41,960 bases of DNA, taken from contig CADAEJ010000021.1 in assembly GCA_902786965.1 (NCBI GenBank), forward strand, positions 1 through 41,960, written 5' to 3'. This DNA is from an uncultured Ruminococcus sp. (GTDB taxonomy: Bacteria; Bacillota; Clostridia; Oscillospirales; Ruminococcaceae). Below the pieces are notes generated by a model, which saw only the letters and a list, made by a program, of their open reading frames with translations, searched no databases and was not told the origin of the DNA. Positions 7,998-31,265 of this stretch are shown here, one piece after another; positions within the stretch are counted from its first letter, which is position 1; each line of letters opens with the position of its first letter. The translations under genes were made by a program, and so were the position numbers.

Positions 7998-8140
7998 TTG
8001 GGGAAAACCCTTTTGGAGAAGGGTTATTCCCCAAACCCCTTTCCTAAACCTTTTATTGCTTTTTCGCCATTTTGGGACAAGCCCCAAAATAACGAAAAAG
8101 TAGTAGGAGTCTAAAAAAGAGTTCAGAGTATAGCATTTCT
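7998..8140 (-). repeat. Structured interspersed repeat, copy A (dnaN leader)
   Basis: The element holds two hairpins. Hairpin 1 (7998-8034) pairs TTGGGG/CCCCAA and AACCC/GGGTT around loop TTTTGGAGAA. Hairpin 2 (8059-8100) has outer arms CTTTTTCG/CGAAAAAG enclosing inner arms ATTTTGGG and CCCAAAAT. Between them is CCTAAACCTTTTATTG. The same architecture recurs at 27691-28012 and 31118-31265 with altered inner-stem sequence but kept pairing. The element points along the dnaN strand, ending 26 nt before its start codon. It contains no transposase and no conserved ORF. Confidence 0.85.
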
Positions 8141-8635
8141 GCATAAGAATTATCATCAATCATTTAATGAGAAGAAAAAACTTTCAATAATTTCAATCAT
8201 AAAATGATTACCTTGATAATTACTTGTTTTAAACAATCAAGCTCTGTGGTGAGAGAAAAAAAATTTACTGTTGTTAACCATCTAACTAATAATTTTTTAG
8301 TATCAGTATTAGAGTACGCTGAAAATGTTGATTGCTGTGCAAAGCGCGGTTTATCGGCACCTTGCGAACTAATTATTTTGATGTATTCAGGTTGATAATT
8401 TGTTGAATAAGTTGATTGATATTTTCGTGTTGCATTGTTTAAAAAATTGTTTGTTGAAAGTTAAAACAATTGTGCAAAATTGAGCACGAAGTTTTATTTT
8501 TTGACTTTTTTCGTACGCGAGCAAATGTTAAAAACGTTTATTATTCTGCACAGCGTATGCTTTATCAGTCTTTTCAGAAAAGTAATTTATGTTGAAAAGT
8601 CTGTTGAAAAAGTTTAAAAGTCTTAAAATTTGGAT
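8141..8635. other. Putative oriC (dnaA-dnaN spacer)
   Basis: A gene-free, very AT-rich spacer between dnaA and dnaN, the usual place of a Firmicutes origin or part of one. It holds same-orientation TGTTGAAAA-type sites, at 8401-8409 (TGTTGAATA), 8452-8460 (TGTTGAAAG), 8590-8598 and 8602-8610 (both TGTTGAAAA), plus GGTTGATAA at 8390-8398. Read on the other strand these are TTTTCAACA-like, two or three changes from the canonical DnaA box TTATCCACA, which I do not find here. A short open frame at 8204-8395 has no recognisable product. The origin assignment is inferred from position, AT content and repeated motif. Confidence 0.65.
8590..8610 (-). promoter_or_regulatory. Paired DnaA-box-like sites near dnaA 3' end
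   Basis: Two exact copies of TGTTGAAAA (minus strand TTTTCAACA) start 12 bp apart, 26 bp beyond the dnaA stop codon. Similar single sites lie at 8401-8409 and 8452-8460, and another at 10135-10143 in the dnaA promoter. Same orientation and spacing near one helical turn fit a DnaA-binding array; binding itself is inferred. Confidence 0.5.
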
Positions 8636-9991
8636 TTAATTGCTGCGCAGGTTTTTGATTATATCGTCAACGTTATCCTTGAGCGCTTTATTGGTATTTA
8701 GCAGCTGGTCTATCTCGTTATAGTGTATCGTCATAGTCGAGTGGTTCTTGTTGAGCGCTTCGCCTATCTGGGTGAATGTCATACCCTTGACGTTTTTCAT
8801 AACGTAGATAGTGATCTTTCTTGCAAGTGAGATCTTTGCCTGTCTGTTCTTTGAGAGGATATCCTCTGCGGTAACATCAAATGCGTCAGCCACATCGCCG
8901 ATTATCCTGTCAACAGTTATCTCGGCAGGGTGATTTTCTATCATTATCTCCTTGATGACCTTCTGAGCCATAGCGATAGTCGGCTGTTCGTTGGTATACA
9001 TCGTAAGGGCTTTTATCTTCTTGACAGTACCCTCTATCTGACGCACGTTGCTCTTTATCTTCTCTGCGATTATCCTCGTCACGCTGTCGGAAAGGTGAAG
9101 GTCGAGCCTGTCCGCCTTGTTTCTGATGATAGCCATTCTTGTTTCAAGATCCGGCGGTGTGATATCGACCTGCATACCGTTTGAAAGCCTTGACTGTATC
9201 CTGTCCTGCAGCTTTGATATCTTTGACGGGTGTATATCCGAGGTCAGCACAATCTGCTTGCCTGCATTGTAAAGCTCGTTGAATGTGTGGAAAAATTCCT
9301 CCTGCATTCTTTCCTTTCCCGCTATCGTCTGTATATCGTCTACCAGCAGAAAATCAGCATTTCTGTACTTGTCGTGGAACTTTACCGTTTCCTTTGTTTC
9401 GATAGCCTTTACAAGCTCGTTGATGAACGATTCGCCCGTTGTGTAGACTATTTTAAGCTCGGGATTGTTTTTTCTTACATCGTACTCGATAGCTTTCATA
9501 AGGTGCGTTTTGCCAAGTCCCGAATCGCCGTAGATAAGCAGGGGATTGAAAAGCATCGTATTGAAATCCTGCTGCTCGGTATTGTTGTTGTATCTGTTTG
9601 CAACGGTCTTTGCAAAAGCAAATGCAAGCTTGTTGGACTCGCCCTGCACGAAGTTGTCAAAGGTGAGCAGGTTGGTAAGGTTGTCCGAATACTTTGCGGG
9701 AGTTACGCTCACGTTCTGCGCATCAGGCTCCTCCTCCTTGCTCTTGACAAGTATCTTTACCTCAACATCAAAGCCCATGACCTCTCTGAAAGCCTCGTGG
9801 ATTATCTTGCCGTAGTTATTCTCGGTCGTGGTCTTTGTAAATTCGGAATCAGCAAGCAGATAGGCGGTGTTGTTCTCAAACTTGTACGGTTCAAGAATTT
9901 TTATCCACCTGTTGTATCCGGGCTCGCTGACCGTTTTATAGTCGTGGCAGTATTTCAGTACCTCCAGAAATACGTCATTGAAGCTGTCCAT
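8636..9991 (-). CDS. dnaA: Chromosomal replication initiator DnaA
   Basis: A 451-residue AAA+ initiator that binds origin boxes and melts DNA. Domain I spans about residues 1-85, followed by a short variable domain II. The AAA+ module has Walker A GDSGLGKTH (155-163) and Walker B LLVDD (215-219). Domain IV has the helix-turn-helix signature region EALNKNHSTMTIHYNEI (411-427). The usual motif there is GGRDHST/DHTT; here Asp is replaced by Asn416 and the preceding loop is one residue shorter. Residues aligned with E. coli Arg399 (in SKNRQ) and Arg407 (in LARK) are kept. The start ATG follows GGAGG with 9 nt spacing. The gene is transcribed toward dnaN from a promoter at 10121-10149. Confidence 0.97.
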   Translation of the reverse strand: MDSFNDVFLEVLKYCHDYKTVSEPGYNRWIKILEPYKFENNTAYLLADSEFTKTTTENNYGKIIHEAFREVMGFDVEVKILVKSKEEEPDAQNVSVTPAKYSDNLTNLLTFDNFVQGESNKLAFAFAKTVANRYNNNTEQQDFNTMLFNPLLIYGDSGLGKTHLMKAIEYDVRKNNPELKIVYTTGESFINELVKAIETKETVKFHDKYRNADFLLVDDIQTIAGKERMQEEFFHTFNELYNAGKQIVLTSDIHPSKISKLQDRIQSRLSNGMQVDITPPDLETRMAIIRNKADRLDLHLSDSVTRIIAEKIKSNVRQIEGTVKKIKALTMYTNEQPTIAMAQKVIKEIMIENHPAEITVDRIIGDVADAFDVTAEDILSKNRQAKISLARKITIYVMKNVKGMTFTQIGEALNKNHSTMTIHYNEIDQLLNTNKALKDNVDDIIKNLRSN

Positions 9992-10355
9992 TCATTTATT
10001 CCTCCATAATAGCCAAAAATGCTTGATTTTTCGATATTCCGACCCTTTTTTGCATACACACTTTTTGTATCTGAAAAATAACAGATTTTAACAAAAGGGC
10101 ATACTGCTCAATTCTAAATAATTATACCACAAACTGTTGAGAATTTCAAGCGTATATATATAATAAATAGTATTTTTTTTAAAAGGGTAGGGAGCATCTG
10201 AAAAAGTACCAAATAAGCTGATTTTTCGATGTTTGAGATCAAGATGTAGTATTTATAACAATTTGATTATCGTCAGTACACAAAAAGTTTAAGAAAATCT
10301 GCACAAAAACCCTTTTGAAAGCTATGCATTTGGTAAAAAAACTTGAAAAAAGGTC
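9992..10355. other. AT-rich dnaA/rpmH spacer
   Basis: A gene-free stretch between divergent dnaA and rpmH. It holds the dnaA promoter, a TA-rich tract (10152-10186) that could serve as an easily melted region, and two copies of TGATTTTTCGAT (10024-10035 and 10219-10230) about 195 bp apart. No ORF or RNA gene is recognisable. Confidence 0.6.
10121..10149 (-). promoter_or_regulatory. dnaA promoter with overlapping DnaA-box-like site
   Basis: On the minus strand, -35 TTGAAA (10144-10149) and -10 TATAAT (10121-10126) are separated by 17 bp. The spacer contains TTCTCAACA (10135-10143), a relative of the TTTTCAACA sites in the dnaA-dnaN spacer. DnaA bound there would block RNA polymerase, consistent with the autoregulation known for dnaA in other bacteria. 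Confidence 0.7.
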
Positions 10356-10385
10356 TTGACAAATGACTATGAAATAAGCTATAAT
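10356..10385 (+). promoter_or_regulatory. rpmH promoter
   Basis: Consensus -35 TTGACA (10356-10361), 18-bp spacer, and perfect -10 TATAAT (10380-10385). Transcription would start near 10392, giving a leader of about 110 nt before rpmH. Confidence 0.85.
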
Positions 10386-10416
10386 GTAAAATTACAAGGG
10401 CTATGTCAAGAATTAT

Positions 10417-10452
10417 CACTTGTCAGTCCGCATAATAAAGACTGACAAAGTG
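10417..10452 (+). promoter_or_regulatory. Strong hairpin in the rpmH leader
   Basis: CACTTGTCAGTC (10417-10428) pairs with GACTGACAAAGTG (10440-10452), giving a 12-bp stem with one bulged base and an 11-nt loop. There is no T tract after it, so it is not an intrinsic terminator. It may stabilise the mRNA or be a feedback site. Confidence 0.6.
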
Positions 10453-10504
10453 GTATTTGTGTAAATATTGCTTGGAAAGGTCAATGGAAGGAGGATGAAC
10501 TATT

Positions 10505-10639
10505 ATGTTGAGAACATACCAGCCTAAGAAGCTTCACAGACAGAAGGTTCACGGTTTCAGAAAGAGAATGGCAACTGCTAACGGCAGAAAGGTACTTGCA
10601 AGAAGAAGAGCAAAGGGCAGAGCAAGACTCAGCTACTGA
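10505..10639 (+). CDS. rpmH: 50S ribosomal protein L34
   Basis: A 44-codon gene whose product begins [20 protein letters not shown] and ends AKGRARLSY, the standard L34 sequence of the large ribosomal subunit. The ribosome-binding site AAGGAGG lies at 10488-10494, 10 nt upstream of the ATG. Divergent rpmH next to dnaA is a hallmark of the bacterial origin region. It is too short for many gene finders but unmistakable. Confidence 0.98.
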
Positions 10640-10659
10640 TAACTTGCATAGTGTGCAGC

Positions 10660-10685
10660 GTCGTCCGCCGATAATGGCGGAGGAC
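10660..10685 (+). other. GC-rich hairpin after rpmH
   Basis: GTCGTCCGCC and GGCGGAGGAC form a 10-bp stem with one mismatch about 20 nt after the rpmH stop. No T tract follows, so it is more likely a processing or stability element than a terminator. Confidence 0.5.
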
Positions 10686-10777
10686 ATCAACTGCCGCGGC
10701 GAAAGAGAAAATGCCGCAGCTTTAAGAGGGGTAAATTATCGGTGAACTTTATTTTAAAGGCGCTTTCCCCTTATGAC

Positions 10778-10829
10778 CGACCTTTACCATTCAAAAAGAT
10801 TGAAGGGTATAAGGTCGTTTTTAGTTTTT
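10778..10829 (+). terminator. Intrinsic terminator/attenuator between rpmH and rnpA
   Basis: An imperfect stem, CGACCTTTACCATTC (10778-10792) against GAAGGGTATAAGGTCG (10802-10817), is followed by TTTTTAGTTTTT. It would reduce read-through from the strong rpmH promoter into rnpA, fitting the low need for RNase P protein compared with L34. Confidence 0.65.
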
Positions 10830-10863
10830 GGTCACATCAGATGAGAAATAAGAAGTAAGAGAT

Positions 10864-11220
10864 ATGTTATTTACAACTGTCCTGAAGGACAACAGCGGTT
10901 TTACGCGCTGTTACAGAAAAGGCAGACGTGTCGGCTGTGATTGGCTGTGCGTACATTTTTTCCCGAATAATATGCCTTTTTCAAGGCTTGGTATAACCGC
11001 AGGCAAAAAGCTTGGCAACGCCGTTGTGCGCAACAGAGTAAAGCGCATAATAAGGGCGGCTTACCGCCAGAGCGAGCAGAGTCTGCCGATAGGCTTTGAT
11101 CTTGTCTTTGTGGGCAGAAACGGCATACAGGACAAAACAAGCTGTGATGTGTGCAGGTTTATCGAAAACCGACTGGTAAAAGAAATGGACAAGCCGTTTG
11201 TCCGCAGTAATAAGAAATGA
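10864..11220 (+). CDS. rnpA: Ribonuclease P protein component
   Basis: The basic protein cofactor (118 residues) that helps RNase P RNA bind pre-tRNA leaders. The RNR signature is clear in GNAVVRNRVKRIIRAAYR (about residues 52-69), preceded by RLGITAGKK. It lies between rpmH and yidD as in most bacteria. Its last four bases overlap the yidD start (ATGA). The start ATG at 10864 gives the normal family length. Confidence 0.96.
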   Translation: MLFTTVLKDNSGFTRCYRKGRRVGCDWLCVHFFPNNMPFSRLGITAGKKLGNAVVRNRVKRIIRAAYRQSEQSLPIGFDLVFVGRNGIQDKTSCDVCRFIENRLVKEMDKPFVRSNKK

Positions 11221-11474
11221 AATATATAGCTTTATTCTTTGTAAAGATCTATCAGAAGTTCATAAGTCCGCTGTTTCCCGCGCAGTGCAAATATTACCCG
11301 AGCTGTTCGGCGTACAGTGCGCAGGCGTTCAAAAAGCACGGCTTTTTCAAGGGACTGCTTTTGAGCGTGTGGAGGCTCCTGCGGTGCAATCCGTGGAGCA
11401 GCGGCGGCGTTGACTACGTTCCCGACAAGCTGAGCAGGGACTATTTCAGAATAAAGAAAAAAGCTGTTAAGTAA
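11217..11474 (+). CDS. yidD: Membrane protein insertion efficiency factor YidD
   Basis: An 85-residue membrane-associated protein with an amphipathic N-terminus (ALFFVKIYQKFISP) and the family core CKYYPSCSAYS, then LLRCNPWSSGGVDYVP, containing the three conserved cysteines. YidD assists YidC-dependent insertion of membrane proteins. It overlaps rnpA by four bases and precedes yidC, the conserved gene order. Confidence 0.96.
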   Translation: MKYIALFFVKIYQKFISPLFPAQCKYYPSCSAYSAQAFKKHGFFKGLLLSVWRLLRCNPWSSGGVDYVPDKLSRDYFRIKKKAVK

Positions 11475-11501
11475 GGAAATAAAGCATATTATCATGCATT
11501 G

Positions 11502-11528
11502 TGTGCAGCGTTATAAAGCATCTGCACA
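11502..11528 (+). other. Small hairpin in the yidD-yidC gap
   Basis: TGTGCAG (11502-11508) and CTGCACA (11522-11528) form a 7-bp stem. The preceding sequence TGCATTGTGTGCAGCGT nearly repeats TGCATAGTGTGCAGCGT found just after rpmH (10645-10661). Significance is unknown. Confidence 0.4.
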
Positions 11529-11558
11529 GATTAAAGGAAAGTAAAACGGAGGACAATA

Positions 11559-13130
11559 ATGAGTATTATAGCTATCCCTTTAGGGTGGATAATGAAGGGC
11601 TTGTACTATGTTGTTAAAAACTATGGTATAGCGCTTTTACTGTTTACGTTCGTAACAAGACTTATAGTTTTTCCGCTGGCGATAAAGCAGCAGAAAAGCA
11701 CGGCGAAGATGGCACTTCTTACGCCGGAGCTTGAAAAGATAAAGAAAAAGTACGGCAAAAATCAGCAGAAGATGCAGGAAGAGCAGATGGCTCTTTACGC
11801 AAAAACGGGCATAAACCCGATGGCAAGCTGTCTGCCGATGATAGTTACTATGGTGATACTGTTCGCACTTATCCCTATCATCTACGGACCGCTGACGTAC
11901 ATCTCAAATGCCGATAAGGACGAGCTGAACAACTCAAATAACCTTATCGCGGGTTTGTATGTCGTTTCAAGCGATATGCACAGCGATAAGAATATCGAGT
12001 ACATCGACAAGGAGATAGAAAAGCTCTCGCTTTCAGACAGCGAAAAGGACGATGTAAAGAAAAAGACCGTTTTTGAAAAATACCTGTTTATGTATGAGAA
12101 AAACGGCAAGAACGAGGACGAGGCTTATCAGGAGTTCTCAAAGTATTTTCTTGATGAGGATAACTGCAAGAACGCTGCAAAGAGCTTAAAGGACGAGGAT
12201 AAACAAGTAAACAGGATACTTGAGGCTATCAAAAAGCATCCCGATATAGACTCGTTTATGCTCAACGAGGAGTATATCTCAAAGAACCTCGTTACCTCGC
12301 GCCCCGAGCTTATGACATTCTCTTTCGTCAACAAGGACGGCGGAGTGTATGCAGACGTACTGCCTGATTCGGTAGTAAGTGCTGCAAAGGATATCGACTA
12401 CAAGAGCTTCGGTCTTGATATGGGCGTTATCCCGTCATTCAAGAATATGACCTGGATTATCCCGTTTGCTTCGTTCATTCTCCAGATAGCAGTTACTATC
12501 GTTTCACAGATCTTCCAGAAAAAGAACAACCCTGCCGCTGCAAAGGCTATGGGTATGGGTATGAAGATAACCTTTATCATCCTGCCTGTGTTCTCGCTGT
12601 GGATCGGTTTCAGCTATCCTTCGGGACTGGGTCTGTACTGGTGCTATTCATCACTGTTTGCACTGCTGCAAACGATAGTTCTCAATGTGATCTACAATCC
12701 TGCAAAGGTTCAGGCTATGGTCGAGGCAGAGCTTGAAAAGAACAAAAAGAACGGCAAAAAGTCAATGTTTGCTAAAATGGCAGAGCAGAATCTCGAAAGA
12801 ATGGGCGGTGCGCCTGCTTCTTCCGATGATGATGACGAGGATACCGATGAGAAAAAGCTCTCCAAGGCTGAAAAAGCTGCCGAGGATCGCCGCCGTATCG
12901 CTGCCGCAAGAAAGCGTATGGCTGAAAAATACGGCGAGGAGTATCAGGAGTTCGCTGACGAGGAGGAAGAGGAAAAGCCAAAGCAGCCTCAAAGCGGCAA
13001 GAAGAAAAAGAATAAGAATAAAAACAATAACAATGGCGGCAATAAGAGCGAAAATGCCGATAATAACGATAATTCCGAAAGTGACGAGCCTGCCGAGGCA
13101 GAGCAGGATACCGACGCAGAGGAAGAATAA
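11559..13130 (+). CDS. yidC: Membrane protein insertase YidC/Oxa1
   Basis: A 523-residue insertase that folds membrane proteins with or without SecYEG. The conserved membrane arginine is Arg34 (VTRLIVFPL). The cytoplasmic helical hairpin spans about 48-85, TM2 91-110, TM3 about 298-320, and TM4-5 include YPSGLGLYW. There is no lipobox cysteine, unlike many bacilli. Between TM2 and TM3 is a hydrophilic insertion of about 180 residues (115-295), much longer than usual, with many Asp, Lys and Glu. The C-terminal tail is strongly basic (KKKKNKNKNNNN), then acidic, and likely contacts ribosomes or RNA. The GGAGG upstream is well placed. jag follows. Confidence 0.95.
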   Translation: MSIIAIPLGWIMKGLYYVVKNYGIALLLFTFVTRLIVFPLAIKQQKSTAKMALLTPELEKIKKKYGKNQQKMQEEQMALYAKTGINPMASCLPMIVTMVILFALIPIIYGPLTYISNADKDELNNSNNLIAGLYVVSSDMHSDKNIEYIDKEIEKLSLSDSEKDDVKKKTVFEKYLFMYEKNGKNEDEAYQEFSKYFLDEDNCKNAAKSLKDEDKQVNRILEAIKKHPDIDSFMLNEEYISKNLVTSRPELMTFSFVNKDGGVYADVLPDSVVSAAKDIDYKSFGLDMGVIPSFKNMTWIIPFASFILQIAVTIVSQIFQKKNNPAAAKAMGMGMKITFIILPVFSLWIGFSYPSGLGLYWCYSSLFALLQTIVLNVIYNPAKVQAMVEAELEKNKKNGKKSMFAKMAEQNLERMGGAPASSDDDDEDTDEKKLSKAEKAAEDRRRIAAARKRMAEKYGEEYQEFADEEEEEKPKQPQSGKKKKNKNKNNNNGGNKSENADNNDNSESDEPAEAEQDTDAEEE

Positions 13131-13247
13131 TATGCATCAAATGCACACTATCGGAGCCGCATTTTGACGAGAGAGCCGCAAGGATCTGCCGCGGCAAAGG
13201 CTTCCGTAACATATAGTGAATTATTTATCGAGAGGAGTAAGGTAAAA

Positions 13248-14042
13248 GTGAAAGAGATTTTTACCGCAGCAAGTGTAGAAGAAGCAAAGCAGCTTGCAGC
13301 ACAGCAGTTTGGCACAAGTGAAGACAAGATAACCTTTAATGTGCTTGAAGAGCCTAAAAAGGGACTTTTCGGAAAAGTAAAGGGAGAGGCAAAGGTTGAA
13401 GCAGAATACAGCGAAACAAAGACCGATATAGCTGTTAAGTATATCAAGAGCGTGCTTGAGGCTATGCAGATAGCCAATGCGTCCGTAGTGGCAGCAGAAA
13501 ACGAGGACGGCGCTGTTATAGAGATAGGCGGCGACGGCTTTGAGGATATGCTTGGCAAAAAGGGCGAGCTGCTTGACTCACTTCAGTATCTTGCATCGCT
13601 GGTGTGCAATAAGGTCGATAAGGAGTATTTCAGGATATCTACCGACTGCAACGGCTTCAGAGAGAGAAGAAAGGCACAGCTTGAAGAGCTTGCAAGAAAG
13701 ATCGCAAATAACGTAAAGAAAAACGGCAGAAGCTCCGCGCTTGAGCCGATGAATCCATATGAAAGACGCATCGTTCACGCCGCTGTTTCCGAGATAGAGG
13801 GCGTTACAAGTCAGTCAAAGGGTGAGGAGCCGTACAGAAAGGTGATCATCTCCTCAACAAACCCAAGAAAGTTTGACGACAGGGGCGGCTTCAAGAGAGG
13901 CGGCAGAGGCAGAAGAAACGGCGGCAGAGGCGGCCGCTCAAAGGGCTTTGATATCACCACAAGCTTTGAAAAGGACTACAAAAAGCCAAAGCCTGAGGAT
14001 TCAATGAAAGGCGCAGGTCTTTATTCCAAAATAGAGTTCTGA
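13248..14042 (+). CDS. jag: Jag/KhpB RNA-binding protein
   Basis: A 264-residue protein with a Jag_N domain (KEIFTAASVEEAKQLA), a KH domain (IGGDGFEDMLGKKGELL, where the usual GxxG is altered) and an R3H domain (FRERRKAQLEELA to NPYERRIVHAAV). In other Firmicutes, KhpB/Jag binds small RNAs and affects elongation and division. The start is GTG at 13248, preceded by GAGGAG 10 nt upstream and matching the family N-terminus; an open extension back to 13164 has no such site. A Gly/Arg-rich segment (GGFKRGGRGRRNGGRGGR) follows the R3H domain. The usual mnmE-mnmG-rsmG genes do not follow. Confidence 0.94.
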   Translation: MKEIFTAASVEEAKQLAAQQFGTSEDKITFNVLEEPKKGLFGKVKGEAKVEAEYSETKTDIAVKYIKSVLEAMQIANASVVAAENEDGAVIEIGGDGFEDMLGKKGELLDSLQYLASLVCNKVDKEYFRISTDCNGFRERRKAQLEELARKIANNVKKNGRSSALEPMNPYERRIVHAAVSEIEGVTSQSKGEEPYRKVIISSTNPRKFDDRGGFKRGGRGRRNGGRGGRSKGFDITTSFEKDYKKPKPEDSMKGAGLYSKIEF

Positions 14043-14049
14043 TAAATGT

Positions 14050-14081
14050 GAGCTGTTGCAGAAATGCAGCAGCTCTTTTTT
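14050..14081 (+). terminator. Intrinsic terminator after jag
   Basis: GAGCTGTTGCA pairs with TGCAGCAGCTC around a GAAA loop, followed by TTTTTTATTT. It ends the rpmH-jag cluster. Confidence 0.92.
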
Positions 14082-14116
14082 ATTTCTTACATTTTATCTA
14101 TTATCACCGAAAGCCG

Positions 14117-14145
14117 TTGACAAATTAACAATATTGTTGTAAAAT
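14117..14145 (+). promoter_or_regulatory. Promoter for the phosphorylase gene
   Basis: -35 TTGACA (14117-14122), a 17-bp spacer, and -10 TAAAAT (14140-14145). It starts a new transcription unit after the jag terminator. Confidence 0.75.
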
Positions 14146-14267
14146 ATATATTAGCAAATTGTCTTTAAAATATTATCGAGTTGTAAGTTTTGCACAAAGC
14201 GCGGCTGTACTTTTGCTGCGCAATACCAAAAACGAAAATCAAATCCACAACGAAAGGAAGAGTTTAT

Positions 14268-15092
14268 ATGTACGATTACGAAAGACTTGAACAGTATGCG
14301 GAGAAGATCAGCACAAAGATAGGCTTTCAGCCAAAGGTAGGTCTTGTGCTTGGCACGGGACTTGGCGATATGGCAGAGAAGATCGAGACGGTCTACGAGG
14401 TGCCATTTACCTCTTTGAACGGTTTTCCCGTGTCCACGGTCGAGGGTCACGTCGGGCATTTTCTGTTCGGCTATATGGAGGACGTGCCTATCGTTTGTAT
14501 GCAGGGCAGAGTCCATTATTACGAGGGCTACTCAATGGAGGACGTTGTGCTGCCGATAAGATTTATGGCTACCATGGGCGTTGAGAGCATTATCCTCACA
14601 AACGCTGCGGGAGGCATCAATAAAGATTTCAACGTAGGTGATATCATGGTCATCACCGACCATATCTCCTCGTTTGTGCCAAATCCTCTGATAGGCAAGA
14701 ACGTTGACCACTTCGGTGTAAGATTCCCCGATATGTCAAATATCTACGACAAGCAGATGAGAGAGACCTTTGTCAACGTTGCAAAGCAGAACGGTATCCC
14801 CGTAAGAGAGGGCGTTTATATCCAGTTTACAGGTCCGTCGTTTGAGTCGCCTGCGGAGATAAGGATGGCTGCGGCGCTCGGTGCTGACGCAGTAGGTATG
14901 TCTACCGCCTGCGAGGCTATTGCTGCACGTCACGCAAAGGTAAAGGTGTGCGGACTTTCCTACATCTCAAATGCCGCTGCGGGACTTTCCGATAAGGAGC
15001 TTTCACACGAGGATGTCCGCTGGGCATCAAAATTCAGCGCGGAGAATGTTGAAAAAATGCTGCGCGGATATTTCAGGAGCATCAAAGAATGA
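14268..15092 (+). CDS. punA: Purine-nucleoside phosphorylase (trimeric type)
   Basis: Cleaves purine ribo- and deoxyribonucleosides with phosphate to the base and sugar-1-phosphate in purine salvage. The 274-residue product has the family landmarks GLVLGTGLGD (phosphate site), GRVHYYEGY, LTNAAGGI, FTGPSFESPAEIR and GADAVGMST, followed by SYISNAAAG with the base-contacting Asn. The start ATG at 14268 has AAGGAAG 8-9 nt upstream; an in-frame extension upstream has no ribosome site. It overlaps the following fumarase-like gene by four bases (ATGA), so the two are translated together. Confidence 0.94.
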   Translation: MYDYERLEQYAEKISTKIGFQPKVGLVLGTGLGDMAEKIETVYEVPFTSLNGFPVSTVEGHVGHFLFGYMEDVPIVCMQGRVHYYEGYSMEDVVLPIRFMATMGVESIILTNAAGGINKDFNVGDIMVITDHISSFVPNPLIGKNVDHFGVRFPDMSNIYDKQMRETFVNVAKQNGIPVREGVYIQFTGPSFESPAEIRMAAALGADAVGMSTACEAIAARHAKVKVCGLSYISNAAAGLSDKELSHEDVRWASKFSAENVEKMLRGYFRSIKE

Positions 15093-21872: not shown

Positions 21873-21901
21873 ACTCTTTGAAAGGAGCAGGTTTTGAGCG
21901 A

Positions 21902-22945: not shown

Positions 22946-23001
22946 TACGCCTGTGAATAAAAGTGTCATCGGGTGCAACAATAAATAAAAAAGGAGAACT
23001 T

Positions 23002-23304: not shown

Positions 23305-23305
23305 C

Positions 23306-23334
23306 AAAAAAGAGACCGCTCAGGTCTCTTTTTA
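23306..23334. terminator. Bidirectional terminator
   Basis: AAAAAGAGACC and GGTCTCTTTTT flank a 5-nt loop; the T tract works in both directions. It serves the alkyltransferase-like gene (plus) and the lipoprotein gene (minus), whose stop codon (23332-23334) lies within it. Confidence 0.92.
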
Positions 23335-24942: not shown

Positions 24943-25009
24943 ACGCACGCCCCCTTTTAACGCCTCTACAAAGAATACGTTCCGGCAAGCCGTTTTTGTG
25001 CGCAGCGTG

Positions 25010-25050
25010 TAAAAAATTGTAAGCCTGCACAATTTGCACTGCGCAGGCTT
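25010..25050 (-). terminator. Terminator of the L,D-transpeptidase gene
   Basis: On the minus strand AAGCCTGC and GCAGGCTT form a stem with a 14-nt loop, followed by ACAATTTTTT. It lies 40 nt after the stop of the 25090-25893 gene. Confidence 0.75.
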
Positions 25051-25089
25051 GTATTATTTCCACAAGAACTATTTTTTGGCGGCAGCAGT

Positions 25090-25893
25090 TTAAACTCCCT
25101 TTTCGACGTAGTATTTTTTCACCTCGTCAAAATTTATGCCCAGCTTGTCGGCTTTGTCAATGGTTATTTTGCAGCCGTTTCTGACCTTTTGCATTATCAG
25201 CTTCATCATCGGCTCGCTGACTGCAACGCAGCCGCCCGTATAAGGCTTTGCAAGACCTGTGCAGTGGAAGAAGAAGCAGGAGCCTTTCTGCGGTATGCAC
25301 TCCTTGTTGTAGCCCATATTCAGACAATATCTGTATTCGTACTTGTAATCAACGATATGCTCGCACTCGTCGGGGTCAAGACCGGGAACGTCCTTGATGT
25401 TGACGAACTCGTTGAAGTGCATACCCTCGCGGTTGTCGCCTGACCAGTAATGGTCCTCGGTGACCTTTGTGTACTCCATCTGACAGCCGGGGTCGTCTGC
25501 GATACCGAAAGCCTTGTCGATAGTGAATGTGCCTGTCGGAGTTATAGCGTGGTCACAGTCTGCATTCCCCATACCCTCAAGACCTGTATATCCGGGTGTC
25601 TCAAGCAGCATCTGCCACTTGCCGTCCTTGTTCTTTTCGTGCATACTTATATACGCTGTTGTATCGCCGACACCCGCAACGACGATCAGCTGATCTGCGT
25701 CCTTGACAGCGTCAAGTTTTGTCAGCCAATCGGGCGAGTCAACTACCGTCTGTTCGGTGATATACAGATCGTTTGTATCAGTCTTGCTGTCGGATATTGA
25801 ACTCGTATCCGCTTTTGAGCTTGAATCGCCGCACGCGGTCAGCATGCTTATGCACAATACCGCAGATGTTAAAATGCTTGCAATTTTTTTCAT
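25090..25893 (-). CDS. L,D-transpeptidase (YkuD-type) lipoprotein
   Basis: A 267-residue exported lipoprotein: MKKIASILTSAVLCISMLTACG with lipobox LTAC. After a Ser/Asp-rich linker comes a YkuD-like catalytic domain: DHAITPTGTFTIDKAFG, then HYWSGDNREGMHFNEF, and the active-site block FFFHCTGLAKPYTGGCVAVS with the nucleophile Cys in GGCVAV and a preceding His. Such enzymes make 3-3 cross-links in peptidoglycan or attach proteins to it. AAGGAGG precedes the ATG. It lies 15 nt after hisC on the same strand and may share its transcript. Confidence 0.88.
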   Translation of the reverse strand: MKKIASILTSAVLCISMLTACGDSSSKADTSSISDSKTDTNDLYITEQTVVDSPDWLTKLDAVKDADQLIVVAGVGDTTAYISMHEKNKDGKWQMLLETPGYTGLEGMGNADCDHAITPTGTFTIDKAFGIADDPGCQMEYTKVTEDHYWSGDNREGMHFNEFVNIKDVPGLDPDECEHIVDYKYEYRYCLNMGYNKECIPQKGSCFFFHCTGLAKPYTGGCVAVSEPMMKLIMQKVRNGCKITIDKADKLGINFDEVKKYYVEKGV

Positions 25894-25908
25894 ATTTTCC
25901 TCCTTATT

Positions 25909-26982
25909 TTATTTGCCCATAAATGCTTTTATCTGCGTTATCATCTGCGCCATTTCGTCATCCGTTCCGATGGTGATGCGCAGGCGGTCGTCGATTCTCG
26001 GTTTGTTGAAAAATCTGATGAAGATGCCCTTTTCGCGAAGGTACTCAAAGATCTCCTTTGCGCTGTACCTTGGGTGAGTCACAAACAGAAAATTCGTCTG
26101 GCTTTGCGGGACATCAAACCCAAGCTCTTTGAGCTGCTGTGCGGTGTTTTCGCGCGTTGCGATGATCTTTTTCAGCGTGCTTTGGAAATACTCCTCGTCC
26201 GCAACGCTTGCCACGCCCGTTTCGATAGACAGCCTGTTGACAGGGTAGGAGTTGTACGAATCCTTGACGGCGAGCATATACTTGATAAGCTCGGCGTTCC
26301 CGTAAGCCTCGCCTATGCGCATACCTGCCATAGAGCGCGATTTTGAGAACGTGTGCGTGATAAGCAGATTGTCGTATTGATTTATCATATCAAGGCAGTC
26401 GATGCCGCTTTGTGCAAAGTCAACATACGTCTGGTCAACGATAACTATGCAGTCCTTGTTGTGTTCAAGCACATCCCGCACGAACTCTCTGCTTTCCGCA
26501 AGAGATGTCGGAGCATTGGGGTTTGCAAAAACGACACCGCCGTTGCCCTCTCCGTAAAGGCTTTGCGCGCTTATGTGAAAGTCCTCATCAACGGGAACTG
26601 TCCTGCTCGGTATCTTTAAAAGCTCGCACCACACGGGGTAGAACGAGTAGGTGATGTCGGGGTAAACTATGGGCTTATCGCTGTTGAAAAACGCGCGGAA
26701 AGCCGTTGCGAGAACGTCGTCCGAGCCGTTTGAAACGAACACGTTGTCCACGCTCAAGCCCGCCCTTTTCGCAAGCGCCTCACGCAGAGGGCCTGCATCC
26801 GCACTCGGATAGCGGCGCATATCCTCGGGCTTGTAGCCGTCAAGTATCTCCCGCACCTTTGGTGACGGCGGATAAGCATTCTCGTTAGCGTTAAGCTTGA
26901 TGATGTTATCGCTCTTTGGCTGTTCGCCCGCAACGTAGGGTGTAATGTTTATAAGATTTTTTCTCCAAAGCTGTTCGCTCAT
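25909..26982 (-). CDS. hisC: Histidinol-phosphate aminotransferase
   Basis: A 357-residue PLP enzyme of aminotransferase family I that converts imidazole-acetol phosphate to histidinol phosphate; many HisC proteins also serve Tyr/Phe synthesis. Landmarks are KLNANENAYPPSP, FVSNGSDDVLA, VVFANPNAPTSL, and the PLP lysine in THTFSKSRSMAGMRIG. The C-terminal LRITIGTDDEM with the conserved Arg is typical. It stands apart from other his genes, so it may be a dispersed his gene or a HisC-like paralogue. GAGGTAT precedes the ATG. Confidence 0.9.
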   Translation of the reverse strand: MSEQLWRKNLINITPYVAGEQPKSDNIIKLNANENAYPPSPKVREILDGYKPEDMRRYPSADAGPLREALAKRAGLSVDNVFVSNGSDDVLATAFRAFFNSDKPIVYPDITYSFYPVWCELLKIPSRTVPVDEDFHISAQSLYGEGNGGVVFANPNAPTSLAESREFVRDVLEHNKDCIVIVDQTYVDFAQSGIDCLDMINQYDNLLITHTFSKSRSMAGMRIGEAYGNAELIKYMLAVKDSYNSYPVNRLSIETGVASVADEEYFQSTLKKIIATRENTAQQLKELGFDVPQSQTNFLFVTHPRYSAKEIFEYLREKGIFIRFFNKPRIDDRLRITIGTDDEMAQMITQIKAFMGK

Positions 26983-27005
26983 TTTTTATACCTCATTTGT
27001 GATGC

Positions 27006-27233
27006 TTATTTTGTTACGTCTGTATCGATTATCATTTTTTTGCAGCCCTCGCAGAAATGCGCAGGTATCGTGAAAGTCGAAAGACCGACCTTTGCCGCGG
27101 TGACTTTGCACGAGCCGCCCATTTTGTCAAACATTGACGCTTTCTTTTCGCCCTCTTTCCAGCTAACGCCCTGGCGTGCATCGCCCGAAAGGATACCCTC
27201 TTTCATTTCCTTTTTGCAGTAAGGACACTCCAT
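27006..27233 (-). CDS. Small zinc-ribbon protein (PF20097-like)
   Basis: A 75-residue protein with two CxxC pairs, MECPYCKKEM at the start and HFCEGCKKMIID near the end, separated by a beta-rich segment with SGDARQGVSWKEGEK. This layout matches the PF20097 (DUF6487) family of small zinc-binding proteins of unknown function. AGGAGA precedes the ATG. A strong promoter and an 8-bp inverted repeat lie directly upstream, so the gene appears individually controlled. Confidence 0.82.
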   Translation of the reverse strand: MECPYCKKEMKEGILSGDARQGVSWKEGEKKASMFDKMGGSCKVTAAKVGLSTFTIPAHFCEGCKKMIIDTDVTK

Positions 27234-27265
27234 TGTTATCTCTCCTATGAATATCTTTGACTTTA

Positions 27266-27295
27266 TCGTGGTAAAGTGCTACTATGCTACCACGA
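27266..27295 (-). promoter_or_regulatory. Operator-like inverted repeat
   Basis: TCGTGGTA (27266-27273) and TACCACGA (27288-27295) are perfect 8-bp inverted arms with a 14-bp spacer; inside is a direct repeat TGCTAC-TA-TGCTAC. It lies just downstream of the -10 of the 27301-27329 promoter, a usual repressor position. It could alternatively fold in the 5' leader. Confidence 0.6.
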
Positions 27296-27300
27296 CAAAC

Positions 27301-27329
27301 AGTATAACACACTTACCCTGTTTTGTCAA
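27301..27329 (-). promoter_or_regulatory. Promoter of the zinc-ribbon gene
   Basis: On the minus strand, -35 TTGACA (27324-27329), 17-bp spacer, and -10 TATACT (27301-27306). The -35 overlaps the stop codon of the preceding gene. Confidence 0.8.
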
Positions 27330-27700
27330 GCCTGTTTTTTACCTGTTCTGATAAAGTCTATCAGCTTTTCTATGTCGTCAAACTCGTCGTAATCGCCTAT
27401 TATCCCCTCGCGGTGATAGACGATACCCGCTTTTTCGTTTCTCTCAAGGCAGTCAAGCAGAGCCTCTTTTCCGTATCTGCGCACAAATTCGGTAAAGCCT
27501 GCGGCTTTGGGTGTTTTGACAAACAGTCCCTTTTTGCAGTTGCTTTCGCCGCACTCATAGCAGGCAGTTATGCCCTTTGCGATACAGCATTTTCTGTTTT
27601 CGCACCATTGCGCGTCCTTGCACCAGTCAAGCTCCATAAAACCGTCTTCACCGCAGCCCTTGCATTTCACGTTCTCGCTGCACAGGCAGTTTCGGCACAA
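27326..27700 (-). CDS. Cysteine-rich DUF3795-like protein, 5' end replaced by repeat
   Basis: An up to 124-residue cysteine-rich protein with CKGCGEDGFMELDWCKDA, CENRKCCIAKGITACYEC and the later FVRRYGKEALLDCLE and GIVYHREGIIGDYD. It resembles the DUF3795 family of small metal-binding-type proteins, function unknown. The only upstream start is a TTG (27698-27700) lying inside the hairpin of a structured repeat; native-looking sequence begins at about 27690. No ribosome site precedes that TTG. The usual family N-terminus (a further cysteine-bearing segment) is missing, so the gene was probably truncated when the repeat arrived; it may be a pseudogene. Confidence 0.6.
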   Translation of the reverse strand: MCRNCLCSENVKCKGCGEDGFMELDWCKDAQWCENRKCCIAKGITACYECGESNCKKGLFVKTPKAAGFTEFVRRYGKEALLDCLERNEKAGIVYHREGIIGDYDEFDDIEKLIDFIRTGKKQA

Positions 27701-28012
27701 GGTGTCTGCGACACCTTATCCCGAAAAAGTAGTAGAGTTCAGAAAAAAGAGTTTGAGAGAAAACGCTCCCAAGAGAATATCCACAGCTACACGATATGCA
27801 TACTGCGGTAAATCCGAATTTGTCGGGGTACGCTTGTCGAGCAGCTGGGGGAAACCCTTTTGGAGAAGGGTTCTCCCCCAGACCCCCTTCCTAAACCTTT
27901 TAATGCTTTTTCGGCACAAGGTGTCTGCGACACCTTATCCCGAAAAAGTAGTAGAGGGTTCAAAAAGAGAGTTTGAGGAAAAACTTTTCCCAAGAGAATA
28001 TCCACAGTTGCT
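27691..28012 (-). repeat. Structured interspersed repeat, copies B1 and B2 in tandem
   Basis: B1 (27691 to about 27840) keeps the hairpin AAGGTGTC/GACACCTT with outer arms, of which one is shortened to TTCGG at the junction with the cysteine-rich gene, and the tail ending AAGAGAATATCCACAG. B2 (27845-28012) is complete: hairpin 1 CTGGGGG/CCCCCAG plus AACCC/GGGTT (27845-27881), hairpin 2 (27906-27948) CTTTTTCGG/CCGAAAAAG around AAGGTGTC/GACACCTT, then the same tail. Both point along the minus strand, toward the downstream cysteine-rich gene. The inner stem differs in sequence from copies A and C. Confidence 0.85.
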
Positions 28013-28147
28013 TGGCAGGTATACCACGGCAAATGCGGATTTATTTGCACATACTTATAGATGTGTACCCGAAGGGGTTTGGGGGCGAACGGAAAGCCCC
28101 CAAATAAAATGCGCCCCGCGCGGCAAATTCTGATTTGTCTTATTAGG
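28013..28147. repeat. Decayed repeat remnants
   Basis: Following B2, sequence such as TACCACGGCAAATGCGGAT and CGCGGCAAATTCTGATTTGTC echoes TACTGCGGTAAATCCGAAT in B1 (27801-27819). A further hairpin TTGGGGGC/GCCCCCAA lies near 28078-28102. No gene is apparent; this looks like worn repeat copies. Confidence 0.5.
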
Positions 28148-28762
28148 TCATGCTTCGTACTCACGCACTCTCAGCTTTATGCCCACACTGTCTGCAATAG
28201 CCTGCGACTTGGCGATCTCCTCCTCGCCGATTACGTCAACAACGGTCAGCATCGTGTTGGGAACATACTCCTTGACCTGCTTTGCGAATTTGAGCATTTC
28301 CTCAAAGCAGTTCACGCCCTTGAAGGAAGGACGGGTAACAGCGTCGTAAGCCTCGGCGGTCGATGCGTTAAGGCTTATCGAAACGGTGTCCACAAGCCCT
28401 TTCAGCTCGGGTGCTATCTCGCGCTTGTTGATAAGGTTGCCAAGACCGTTGGTGTTCAAACGTATCGGCGTGCGGCAGATACCTCTGATAAACAGCGCGG
28501 TGGATTTAAGTATCTCAAACTCGCAGGTCGGCTCGCCGTAGCCGCAGAAGATTATCTCCTCGTAGCTGTCCAGCCTGCGCTTCATAAGGTCGGCCGCGAC
28601 CTCTGCCGCATTTGGCTGATGCTCAAGCCACAACGGGTCCGAGCCGTATGCGCCGTCACCGTTGTTTCTTATGCAGAAGGTGCAGTTGCACGGGCATTTG
28701 TTGGTTATGTTGAGATACAGCTTGTTTCCTATCTCATATGAAATGTTCATTGCTTTTTGCAT
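28148..28762 (-). CDS. TatD-linked radical SAM protein
   Basis: A 204-residue radical SAM enzyme with the CX3CX2C cluster motif in NITNKCPCNCTFCIRN (about residue 20-35), followed by the SAM-binding IFCGYGEPTCEFEIL and NTNGLGNLINKR. It matches the small radical SAM family encoded near TatD nucleases; the reaction is unknown. The start ATG at 28762 has GGAAAGGGA upstream; a second ATG at 28750 is possible. No tatD gene is present in this window. It lies 79 nt after the next radical SAM gene on the same strand. Confidence 0.85.
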   Translation of the reverse strand: MQKAMNISYEIGNKLYLNITNKCPCNCTFCIRNNGDGAYGSDPLWLEHQPNAAEVAADLMKRRLDSYEEIIFCGYGEPTCEFEILKSTALFIRGICRTPIRLNTNGLGNLINKREIAPELKGLVDTVSISLNASTAEAYDAVTRPSFKGVNCFEEMLKFAKQVKEYVPNTMLTVVDVIGEEEIAKSQAIADSVGIKLRVREYEA

Positions 28763-28841
28763 ATCTATCGTCCCTTTCCTTGAAAGAGCAAGCCTTCCGT
28801 GTTCAGCTATTATTATATCACCTTGCAGGTGCGGTGTCAAA

Positions 28842-29795
28842 TCACCCTGCGAACTTTATTCCCTGATAAGAATTGCGCCTGCCAAGCTCTTTGTCTATCT
28901 CGTTCATCACGCAGAATTTTTTCAGGCTCCAAAGCGGCGCGATAAGCTCATTCCTTGCGCCGTCACCCGTTACGCGCTGTATTATCAGCTCTTTGGGCAG
29001 CAGCTCTATCTGGTCGCAAACGGTGTCCACATATTCGCGCATCGACAGCGTTTCAAACTCGCCGCGGCTGTACATTTGTGCAAGCTCGGTGTCTTTCAGA
29101 ACGTGCAGCAGGTGTATTTTTATGCTGTGCAGATCAAGCCTTGAAAGCTGCCTTGCAGTTTCAAGCATCATATCGTGAGTTTCGTGCGGCAGCCCGTTGA
29201 TGATATGCACGCACACGTTTACGCCGTTTTTCCGCAGCAGTTCATACCCCTTGAGAAAATCCGCAAACGTGTGGCAGCGGTTCATCGCAAGGGCTGTTTC
29301 ATCGTGGACTGTCTGCAAGCCAAGCTCAACGGTGAGATAGGTTTTCTGTGCGATCTCGCCGAGCAGCGCGGCATTTTCCTCGCTGATGCAGTCAGCTCTC
29401 GTGGCGATGCTCAAGCCTGCGCAGTTTTCAACGGAAAGCGCGGTCTCGTACATCTCGCGCAGCCTCTCAACAGGCGCGTAGGTGTTCGAGCCCGCCTGAA
29501 AATAGGGGATATACAGTCCCTCCGACCACTTTTCGTTCATTCTCGCCCTGACGCTTTCAAACTGCGTGCGTATGTCGTCACACGGGTCGCCCGCGAACTC
29601 GCCGCTGAGATACGCCGAGCAGAATTTGCACCCCCCGATGCCCTTTGTGCCGTCGCGGTTGGGGCAGCCAAGGTCAACATTGAGAGGTATCTTCATCACC
29701 TTTTTGCCGAAACGGCTGCGCAGGTAATAATTGTATGTGTGATAGCGCTTGTTGTCGTGTGAAAACTCAAACGGATTATCTGTGATAGTGTTCAT
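28842..29795 (-). CDS. YhcC-type radical SAM protein (TIGR01212)
   Basis: A 317-residue radical SAM/Elp3-like protein. The N-terminus RYHTYNYYLRSRFGKKVMKI and the cluster motif LGCPNRDGTKGIGGCKFC (CX11CX2C spacing) are typical of the YhcC/TIGR01212 family. AGSNTYAPVERL and VELGLQTVHDETA follow. The biochemical role is not established. The start ATG at 29795 has GGGAGAA at proper spacing; codons upstream extend into AT-rich leader without a ribosome site. Confidence 0.9.
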   Translation of the reverse strand: MNTITDNPFEFSHDNKRYHTYNYYLRSRFGKKVMKIPLNVDLGCPNRDGTKGIGGCKFCSAYLSGEFAGDPCDDIRTQFESVRARMNEKWSEGLYIPYFQAGSNTYAPVERLREMYETALSVENCAGLSIATRADCISEENAALLGEIAQKTYLTVELGLQTVHDETALAMNRCHTFADFLKGYELLRKNGVNVCVHIINGLPHETHDMMLETARQLSRLDLHSIKIHLLHVLKDTELAQMYSRGEFETLSMREYVDTVCDQIELLPKELIIQRVTGDGARNELIAPLWSLKKFCVMNEIDKELGRRNSYQGIKFAG

Positions 29796-29991
29796 AGTGT
29801 TCTCCCGATAATTGCAAAACTGTAAATGCACGATTAAAAAACCGCGCAGAAATTTATGCACAAACAATTGCTCTGTATAAATATCTAAATAATCATCAGC
29901 CTGACCTTAACCGATTTTAACATATTTCACAAAAATACGCAAGCATATTTATTTACAAATTCTAAATTTTAATAAAATTTATTCAAAAACC

Positions 29992-30020
29992 TTTTCAAAC
30001 GCTTGCAAATGTGTTATAAT
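29992..30020 (+). promoter_or_regulatory. Promoter of the epimerase gene
   Basis: -10 TATAAT (30015-30020) with a weak -35 TTTTCA (29992-29997) and 17-bp spacing. The surrounding 29796-30063 spacer is AT-rich and shows no gene. Confidence 0.6.
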
Positions 30021-30072
30021 TATCAAGTAGATATGCGATTTTCTATACATCGCAGCGAAAGGAGTGACAGCA

Positions 30073-31002
30073 ATGGCAACAGTATTTGTTACCGGCGTCA
30101 GCGGAATGATCGGAAAGATCGTTGTTGCAAGTCTGCTGACAAAGAAACATAAAGTTATCGGTACAGACAGCAAACCATGCAACCTTGAGGGCGTAGACCC
30201 CAACTTCCAGTTTATACAGACAGAGATAACCAACAAAGCAGGTATTTCACAGCTGTTTGCAGACAACAAGATAGATTTCCTTGTACACCTTGCAAACACC
30301 GCAGATAATGACTTTGACGCATTTATTTCCGATAAGGAGATGAAGCAGAGCAAGCTTACGGACAAATATCTGTACGATATCGCTGTTAAGGCAGGCTGCA
30401 CAAGCATCCTGATACTGTCCACCACACAGGTCTACGGTATCCAGAAGGGCAGAGATCCTATCAGAGAGACCGCACCTGACAAGGCTATTTCCAACTATAC
30501 CAGCATGAAGCTCGACAGCGAAAAGGCTCTGATGAAGGCTACAAAGAAGTCAAAGACTGTGCCTGTCATCGCAAGAGTTGCGCCGATATATACCGGCGAG
30601 TTCACGCAGAATATGCACCAGAGAGTGTTTGATACAAAGGAAAACGTGGCTTACATCTACAAAGAGGGTGAGTACGGTTATTCGTTCTGCAATCTATACA
30701 ATCTGGTCGATTTTATCAACGGCATCATCAATATCCCCGAGGGCAGATACGAGGGTATCTACAATATCGCGGATACGAGAATGATAACTGCCGCCGAGAT
30801 AATCGAGTACGAAAAGAAAAAGTACCGCATAGGCGCAGTTATACAGAAAAACCCCAACATCGTGCTTTCGGTAAACAAGGGACAGATGAAGACCGATTAC
30901 AGATATTTCGACCCGACATTCACTTTCTACAACTGGAATATCGACAACACCAAGGCGAGAAGGATATCTACGTTCCGCTGGAATCTGTCAAATACAAAGT
31001 AA
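30073..31002 (+). CDS. NAD(P)-dependent epimerase/dehydratase (extended SDR)
   Basis: A 309-residue Rossmann protein with the nucleotide motif GVSGMIGK (residues 7-14) and catalytic-type YxxxK in NYTSMK. LSTTQVYGIQKG and APIYTG fit extended SDR sugar-nucleotide epimerases/dehydratases, but substrate residues cannot be read. The start ATG at 30073 has AAAGGAG 8 nt upstream. It is a single-gene unit, with its own promoter and terminator. Confidence 0.85.
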   Translation: MATVFVTGVSGMIGKIVVASLLTKKHKVIGTDSKPCNLEGVDPNFQFIQTEITNKAGISQLFADNKIDFLVHLANTADNDFDAFISDKEMKQSKLTDKYLYDIAVKAGCTSILILSTTQVYGIQKGRDPIRETAPDKAISNYTSMKLDSEKALMKATKKSKTVPVIARVAPIYTGEFTQNMHQRVFDTKENVAYIYKEGEYGYSFCNLYNLVDFINGIINIPEGRYEGIYNIADTRMITAAEIIEYEKKKYRIGAVIQKNPNIVLSVNKGQMKTDYRYFDPTFTFYNWNIDNTKARRISTFRWNLSNTK

Positions 31003-31023
31003 ATATTTAAAGAAATACTTTAT

Positions 31024-31062
31024 TCAGCCATATGGAAGATTATTCGTATGGCTGATTTTTTC
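31024..31062 (+). terminator. Terminator of the epimerase gene
   Basis: TCAGCCATA (31024-31032) pairs with TATGGCTGA (31047-31055), followed by TTTTTTCTTTT. Confidence 0.9.
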
Positions 31063-31117
31063 TTTTCAAAAACAACAAAATGTTGCAAATATTTATTAGC
31101 CTATTAGCTGTGTAAGC

Positions 31118-31265
31118 TCTCTTTGGAGAGTTTTTTCTCAAACTCTTTTTCTGAACTCTACTACTTTTTCGTTATTGGGGTGGTAAACCCCAATGGCGAA
31201 AAAGCAATAAAAGGTTTAGGAAGGGGGTCTGGGGGAGAACCCTTCTCGAAAAGGGTTTCCCCCAG
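31118..31265 (+). repeat. Structured interspersed repeat, copy C
   Basis: Inverted relative to copies A and B on the map but in the same sense as its downstream gene. A small hairpin CTCTC/GAGAG (31118-31131) is followed by CTCAAACTC and the conserved ACTCTACTACTTTTTCG. Hairpin 2 (31164-31204) has inner arms ATTGGGG/CCCCAAT, then AATAAAAGGTTTAGGAAGG, and hairpin 1 (31229-31265) CTGGGGG/CCCCCAG with AACCC/GGGTT. It ends 180 nt before the aminotransferase start. Confidence 0.85.

Follow-up and report, generated by a model that had tools for sequence, protein, structure and literature searches.

Hairpin repeats of an uncultured Ruminococcus as probable non-coding cassettes of a dispersed, integron-like system

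Introduction

Hairpin-rich intergenic repeats recur in a stretch of 41,960 nucleotides from an uncultured Ruminococcus sp. (positions 1-41,960 of contig CADAEJ010000021.1, assembly GCA_902786965.1), hereafter the window; the assembly it belongs to, 2.61 Mb in 125 contigs, is called the own genome. What are these hairpins, and how did their stems come to differ on both arms at once? A first-pass annotation of the window proposed an RNA leader element, a stability or processing site, or a mobile hairpin of the miniature inverted-repeat transposable element (MITE) or repetitive extragenic palindrome (REP) kind. The last of these proposals is supported, as the module occurs in dozens of copies, with recurrent exact ends, and is present or absent site by site.

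We conclude that Ruminococcus and related genera probably share a dispersed cassette system resembling integrons, and that the window hairpins are its non-coding cassettes. Sequence comparison shows the features on which this reading rests: the sites, the architecture of the cassettes, non-coding modules found in the same slot and differing interiors at an orthologous position. It also shows a cassette common to dissimilar platforms, and platforms that lie between pairing, terminator-like flanks.

Results

Sites, cassettes and platforms

The largest window copy is part of a composite, 27809-28137, whose ends and internal boundary are marked by a 14-bp quasi-palindromic site, YAAATCNGNATTTR. 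The site is inverted at the two ends of a bounded unit. Compared with a reversed-pattern control it was found 77 times against 0 in the own genome, 125:0 in G028, 110:1 in G016, 86:0 in G022, 43:0 in G006, 33:0 in G018 and 28:0 in G008; the remaining 22 genomes hold 1-19 sites against 0-2 control matches.

In R. albus 7 and other genomes, single genes lie between two inverted copies of the site, arranged as TAAATCGGAATTTA, an open reading frame (ORF), its stop and TAAATTCTGATTTA, and in some cases the stop codon is the TAA of the next site. Many of these cassettes lie in a repeated platform, which opens with a hairpin (GCCATAGTA...TACTATGGC), continues with a promoter (TTGACA-17-TATAAT) and the slot, and closes with another hairpin (GCCCCGAAG...CTTCGGGGC). 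Platform matches are present in 23 of the 29 genomes of the genus. G002, which is R. albus 7 (its plasmid records match at the same coordinates), has 35 of them at no fewer than 21 distinct places, some matches being one hairpin counted on both strands; one of its cassette ORFs is annotated as 'hypothetical protein'. Family-wide, the platform occurs in 19 of 197 genomes, of which three belong to the own genus, and in 12 of 125 genera, in some at 96-97% identity; contamination of metagenome-assembled genomes (MAGs) may contribute. The only plasmids with matches are the two of R. albus 7, and among phages there is one partial match. Viral contigs gave 47 matches to a 19-base core pattern and none to a strict promoter pattern.

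Forty-nine complete units were identified among the fetched loci. The strict promoter, TTGACR-16..18-TATAAT, is present in 41 of them, and the spacer is 17 nt in 40. One main sense ORF (at least 50 residues, longer than any antisense ORF, start within 80 nt) is found in 44 units, and 42 of these ORFs fill at least 75% of the slot. The five units lacking one are L316 (non-coding), L388 (an insertion sequence, IS, in a GNAT gene), L395, L409 and L418. Pfam was scanned with 35 of the 44 ORFs (the rest are near-copies, except L351) and with some ORFs outside the 49 units. The cargo matches GNAT acetyltransferases, S66 peptidases, PfkB, HD, ACT, APH-type phosphotransferase, dCTP deaminase, ApbA, a uridine-kinase-family entry, WapI immunity and DUF3784, while many ORFs have no Pfam match.

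Genes are not the only content of these slots. In the own genome, L348 (C7) is a platform with a cassette for an 81-residue protein, L316 (C5) is a complete platform with its slot filled by non-coding modules, and at L352 (C64) the platform is followed by a site, an F module, a site and a hairpin module that runs to the contig end. The contents of L316 and L352 show that hairpin modules and genes occupy the same kind of slot. A module with CCCGAAGGGG, the sequence contained in the second module of the window composite, is also found in the slot of L316.

In some R. albus 7 cassettes (L376, L381, L385, L391) the ends are extended or doubled: TAAACC precedes the 5' site and GGTTTA follows the 3' site, or only one of the two is present, as though one site had inserted into another.

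Site-bounded elements also occur in shorter forms. G016 contains nine of 116-200 bp (L080-L087, L089), with the same end sites and an unrelated interior rich in GTGAATAGTGAA-like repeats, and one element of G000, L335, resembles them. No long autonomous element with the same ends was found among the site places listed for G000, G006 and G016. For the analysis of target duplications, 27 of 45 site pairs were kept by hand-set rules that removed internal sites and chance pairs; TA is found at both ends in 23 of the 27, and the flanks read outward show a weak consensus, TCTTAT.

Interiors that vary while the ends stay the same

The intergenic position L090 is orthologous across species, six of which share the end sites around at least four kinds of interior. 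The left junction falls at the identical base in G006, G000, G008 and G022; these four, together with G018 and G021, also agree in the right junction. G006, and G018 as far as read, have an F module on the left and the hairpin on the right; the interior of G021 is inverted relative to G006, and in G000, G008 and G022 one or both ends carry other modules. In G028 the position holds a different sequence that lacks the site. At L091, a hairpin-type module in G006 corresponds to a different module in G018. The dnaA-dnaN site of the window has a full module copy in none of the seven aligned congeners. By eye, G028 (L102) has a decayed left-arm remnant of about 20 nt at the position of window copy 1.

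Nine pairs among the 49 units carry the same cargo. One of them is L314 (G009) and L423 (G203, a different genus), where the cassettes are identical at 293/301 positions (97%), the platforms at 62/117 (53%; 79% over 53 nt by BLAST) and the terminator sides at 44/88. The outer flanks are unrelated, and identity breaks at the sites, from 97% to about 50% on either side. For L322/L381 the values are 865/877 for the cassette against 96/113 and 59/81, and in L346/L374 the cassette (276/277) is compared with a platform at 91/116 and a shared terminator side. Smaller gaps are seen for L366/L397 (914/1024 against 85/114), L363/L387 (505/571, 93/115) and L362/L411 (550/583, 98/113). L346/L348 is an orthologous pair.

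Position of the platforms in terminator-like loops

The outer flanks of the platforms pair with a score of at least 10 in 25 of 36 units, compared with 7.5% of mismatched pairs (0 of 2000 permutations). The 14 nt of shared end sequence were trimmed, and 36 of the 49 units were usable, the other 13 having no outer motifs, too little flank or duplicate sequence. TTTT lies to the right of 24 of the 36 units (AAAA in 7) and AAAA to the left of 23 (TTTT in 2). At two loci the state without a unit can be seen in congeners: G003 and G005 at L381, and G003, G005, G014 and G025 at L383, have an uninterrupted terminator-like stem-loop followed by T residues, and in R. albus 7 the unit is in the loop. 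In general, the loop of a terminator-like stem-loop is where a platform tends to be found.

The A-type hairpins of distant congeners have pairing flanks at all nine loci used (mean score 20.8 against 7.9, 0 of 5000 permutations); L063 and L079, on contigs that stop within the element, were left out. Some of these hairpins share arm sequence, so the stem may partly belong to the element.

Covariation of the hairpins

The neighbouring hairpins of a copy are parts of one nearly palindromic module. The first-pass annotation reported shared arms with differing enclosed stems, and this is correct: the three tip hairpins (Table 1) have the arms CTTTTTCG/CGAAAAAG in common and differ in the stem they enclose. 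The reported change at the foot of the second hairpin, TTGGGG/CCCCAA against CTGGGGG/CCCCCAG, is confirmed as well. Folding energies of the full copy are -75 kcal/mol for one strand and -86 kcal/mol for the other, with z-scores of -7.5 and -8.4 against shuffled sequences, none of 200 shuffles folding as well.

An alignment was made of 42 of 72 distinct copies, with reverse-strand palindromic matches, near-copies and divergent copies left out. Two-sided pair changes occupy 134 cells, compared with a shuffled mean of 34 (0 of 500 shuffles reach it), and affect 13 of the 28 pairs. Only 17 of 1176 cells are unpaired, and no one-sided change to another standard pair (G-U) is seen. In the left-arm hairpin 12 of 14 pairs are invariant, and the tip hairpin changes wholesale.

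From changes on both arms it had been concluded that structure is selected. The covariation is real, but the inference does not follow, because replacement or copying of whole DNA hairpins predicts the same pattern and fits the pair changes at least as well as selection on RNA. Two-sided changes without G-U intermediates favour hairpin turnover at the DNA level. If this holds, it is also a caution for other multicopy hairpins, where strong two-sided covariation can come from DNA-level replacement rather than from RNA selection.

Abundance and orientation

The hairpin module has 47 matches in the own genome and is present in 18 of the 29 genomes of the genus, the own genome included. Many of the 47 matches are at contig ends, and therefore the repeat probably breaks the assembly. 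An exact core pattern was found in 85 stretches of named species genomes; the 80 listed are from MAGs of uncultured Clostridiales/Clostridia, from Ruminococcus sp. MAGs and from Ruminococcus sp. FC2018.

According to the first-pass annotation, the downstream gene is always the one at which the element is aimed. All three window copies have a gene next to the left arm that starts at the element, so the reported common sense holds there, but in the own genome such genes start at the element in 9 cases and end there in 22 (none called in 1, n=32 scored). Loci of other genomes give 18 starts, 33 ends and 1 without a called gene (n=52 scored), and where both neighbours are called, 14 tandem arrangements in one sense, 13 in the other, 12 convergent and 2 divergent. 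The genes come from a home-made hexamer model, two copies per set overlap a called gene, and many own-genome copies have one flank, the contig ending there; copies with duplicate flanks and matches of at most 40 nt were left out. The hairpin module is not aimed at genes and is commoner beside gene ends. Its orientation also differs between species at L090, and the general claim has to be abandoned. Random orientation together with no excess of compensatory changes had been named in advance as refuting; we find mixed orientation, yet a clear excess of compensatory changes.

In four copies of G000 (C2:17109-17365, C39:2542-2788, C58:23040-23324, C61:16701-16983) small perfect hairpins, strung together over about 110-130 nt, lie within the loop of the left arm.

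Discussion

A possible mechanism

How could such cassettes move? The 14-bp site, inverted at the two ends, would bound the mobile unit. In many congeners this unit is one promoterless gene between the consensus promoter of the platform and the hairpin, and in the own genome the slot, or a free-standing site pair, can hold a palindromic hairpin module instead. The cassettes would be moved by an enzyme that recognises the site, either as such or in a folded form, and the hairpin modules would be non-coding parasites of that machinery. The nested palindromes and the apparent compensatory changes could then both come from insertion or replacement that is targeted to loops and places one hairpin in another. 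Present activity and a folded intermediate are presumed in this scheme. We offer only tentatively, as a possibility that may well prove wrong, the complete version: a gene-capture system with promoter-site-hairpin platforms in terminator loops, single-gene cassettes exchanged by a recombinase at the site or its folded form, and self-spreading hairpins as cassette parasites. If the cassette reading is right, Clostridia of the rumen and gut would swap genes in an integron-like manner at many dispersed places in the genome, where every captured gene would find a consensus promoter in position. The activity is directly testable in R. albus 7 (DSM 20455), given its at least 21 distinct platform matches.

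Several observations weigh against a cassette system. The same-cargo pairs are few, and of the nine one is orthologous, two share one partner and one, L345/L385, moved as a whole unit (512/533, platform 111/113); in the weaker pairs, coding constraint could slow the divergence of the cassette. No empty platform was found with a strict pattern, the matched letters of its 7 hits being judged not to be platforms, and no empty site was seen at the L385 locus, where 998 nt separate the flanks in one genome and six genomes have only the left flank. A Shine-Dalgarno-like motif precedes the chosen start in 25 of the 44 ORFs. At L090 the whole interior was read in G006 only, and several junctions are near contig ends. 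Only 10 of 36 units were scored with a T-rich run immediately after the right arm, the arms found often taking in A/T runs. Pairing flanks are not supported around 26 of the 27 site-bounded elements, those used from the window clade, where permutations were at least as good in 1680 of 2000 cases untrimmed and 227 of 2000 trimmed. No target duplication beyond a possible TA is seen at the 27 site-bounded elements.

The same applies to the search for an enzyme. The cargo ORFs scanned contain no Pfam recombinase, no dedicated IntI search having been made, and no integrase or transposase linked to the system was found. The first-pass annotation had suggested searching for a transposase with matching ends; PF13751 (IS1182-type) alone was searched, and matching ends were not found. 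This family is present in 9 of the 29 genomes and absent from the own genome and from G023, which has 27 platform matches. The 20 loci examined from 26 listed matches have no end motif, and one has a promoter-like match; the outer-motif pattern recovers only 14 of 20 known platform loci. The IS1182-type transposase was set aside as a candidate, no link to the system being seen. Within the platform at L388 (R. albus 7, C5:1374200-1377200) the GNAT-like cassette gene is interrupted by a transposase gene that looks IS1595-type by eye. This transposase appears to belong to an IS interrupting that gene, and it was also set aside.

Alternative explanations

The window hairpins could also be an ordinary MITE family, with the sites as terminal inverted repeats, the transposase elsewhere or lost, and the gene-bearing forms as mobile insertion cassettes. 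The inverted 14-bp ends, the TA at both ends of most elements, the nine short G016 copies with the same ends and the lack of a transposase inside the elements all agree with this. The missing target duplication does not, nor do the cassettes of 49 units in one fixed promoter-hairpin slot or the six species with unchanged ends and different interiors, and we consider this explanation unlikely, if still worth keeping in mind. An even less probable one needs no enzyme at all. Exchange of interiors by homologous recombination has been proposed for minimal mobile elements, and here the repeated platforms and modules are numerous and similar enough to serve as substrates; L345/L385, which moved with its platform, and the shared terminator side of L346/L374 agree with it. 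However, such exchange usually carries flanking platform along, while in L314/L423 the identity drops at the site on both sides.

A structured RNA whose pairing is under selection, whether as a leader, a processing site or a terminator, would account for the very stable fold, for the strong pair covariation and for the three window copies in the sense of the neighbouring gene. We regard it as very improbable. An Rfam scan of the window at the gathering threshold gave no match, the orientation is mixed, interiors are different or inverted at one orthologous site, the dnaA-dnaN site has no full copy in the aligned congeners, and the many two-sided changes come without a single one-sided G-U change. 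The leader element of the first-pass annotation fails on the same grounds.

Relation to known systems

Integron cassettes are single promoterless ORFs with short sites, a resident promoter upstream and varied cargo rich in small enzymes. The cassettes described here share the promoterless ORFs between short sites, the resident promoter and the varied cargo, and recombination at the sites would be a further likeness. Unlike integrons, they occupy dispersed single slots at many loci rather than a tandem array, have 14-bp inverted sites at both ends instead of one attC, and no integrase was found in the slots, with no direct search for IntI.

For the intergenic modules, the Neisseria intergenic mosaic elements (NIMEs; dRS3/RS) are comparable: according to PMC3898611, a short quasi-palindromic repeat, dRS3, with the sequence ATTCCC(N8)GGGAAT, punctuates diverse intergenic modules. 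The likeness is a short quasi-palindromic repeat between diverse modules, and the difference is that the site here is YAAATCNGNATTTR, not dRS3, and that gene cassettes occur with a promoter and hairpin platform; no link to filamentous phages was found here. The same source describes Correia elements as short, transposase-less and present in many copies with inverted ends (PMC3898611). Like MITEs in general, the modules are short non-coding elements with terminal inverted repeats and many copies, but the interiors vary between fixed ends, the ends are common to gene cassettes, and a target duplication has not been demonstrated. IS1272, according to PMC5678879, inserts at palindromic targets by stem-loop replacement without ordinary target duplication. 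Insertion tied to palindromic targets, without such a duplication, is the feature in common with that description; the units here contain no transposase, and IS1182-type genes are not linked to them. IS1272-like stem-loop replacement is an attractive model that the IS1182-type data do not support. By this comparison NIMEs seem the nearest architecture for the intergenic modules and integrons for the gene cassettes, and neither fits all features. A search of the open-access literature (titles and abstract openings; subscription papers and preprints outside its scope) found no description of such a system.

Features of the window

The three loci of the first-pass annotation are at the right positions, except that 27691-28012 consists of two copies, a right half and a full module. 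Its third copy is placed correctly and belongs on the minus strand. Coordinates are given in Table 1.

Table 1. Hairpin modules, sites and neighbouring genes in the window.
Feature	Positions	Strand	Context or basis
Hairpin module copy 1 (left arm, core, tip hairpin, partial right arm)	7999..8123	+	dnaA-dnaN intergenic
Variable tip hairpin, copy 1	8059..8100	+	
Right half of a further hairpin copy (just tip hairpin and right arm)	27690..27789	+	
Full-length hairpin module, site at either end	27809..28043	+	
Forward site TAAATCCGAATTTG, left end of full copy	27809..27822	+	
Variable tip hairpin, full copy	27906..27948	+	
Internal site CAAATGCGGATTTA (TAAATCCGCATTTG read on the minus strand)	28030..28043	-	
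Second non-coding module of the composite, carries CCCGAAGGGG	28044..28123	+	
Outer site CAAATTCTGATTTG, closes the 329-nt composite	28124..28137	-	
Hairpin module copy 3, opposite orientation	31118..31265	-	
Variable tip hairpin, copy 3	31164..31205	-	
dnaN (beta clamp)	6853..7971	-	Pfam
dnaA	8636..9991	-	Pfam
Cysteine-rich ORF without a Pfam match; 5' end, as assigned mechanically, runs into the half copy	27326..27700	-	
Radical SAM gene, end 11 nt away from the composite	28148..28840	-	Pfam
NAD-dependent epimerase gene	30064..31002	+	Pfam
Aspartate aminotransferase-type gene	31431..32726	+	Pfam

Elsewhere in the window, an exact 48-nt tandem duplication at 40609-40704 lies in a predicted gene (40259-41959, minus strand), where it forms an in-frame repeat of 16 residues.

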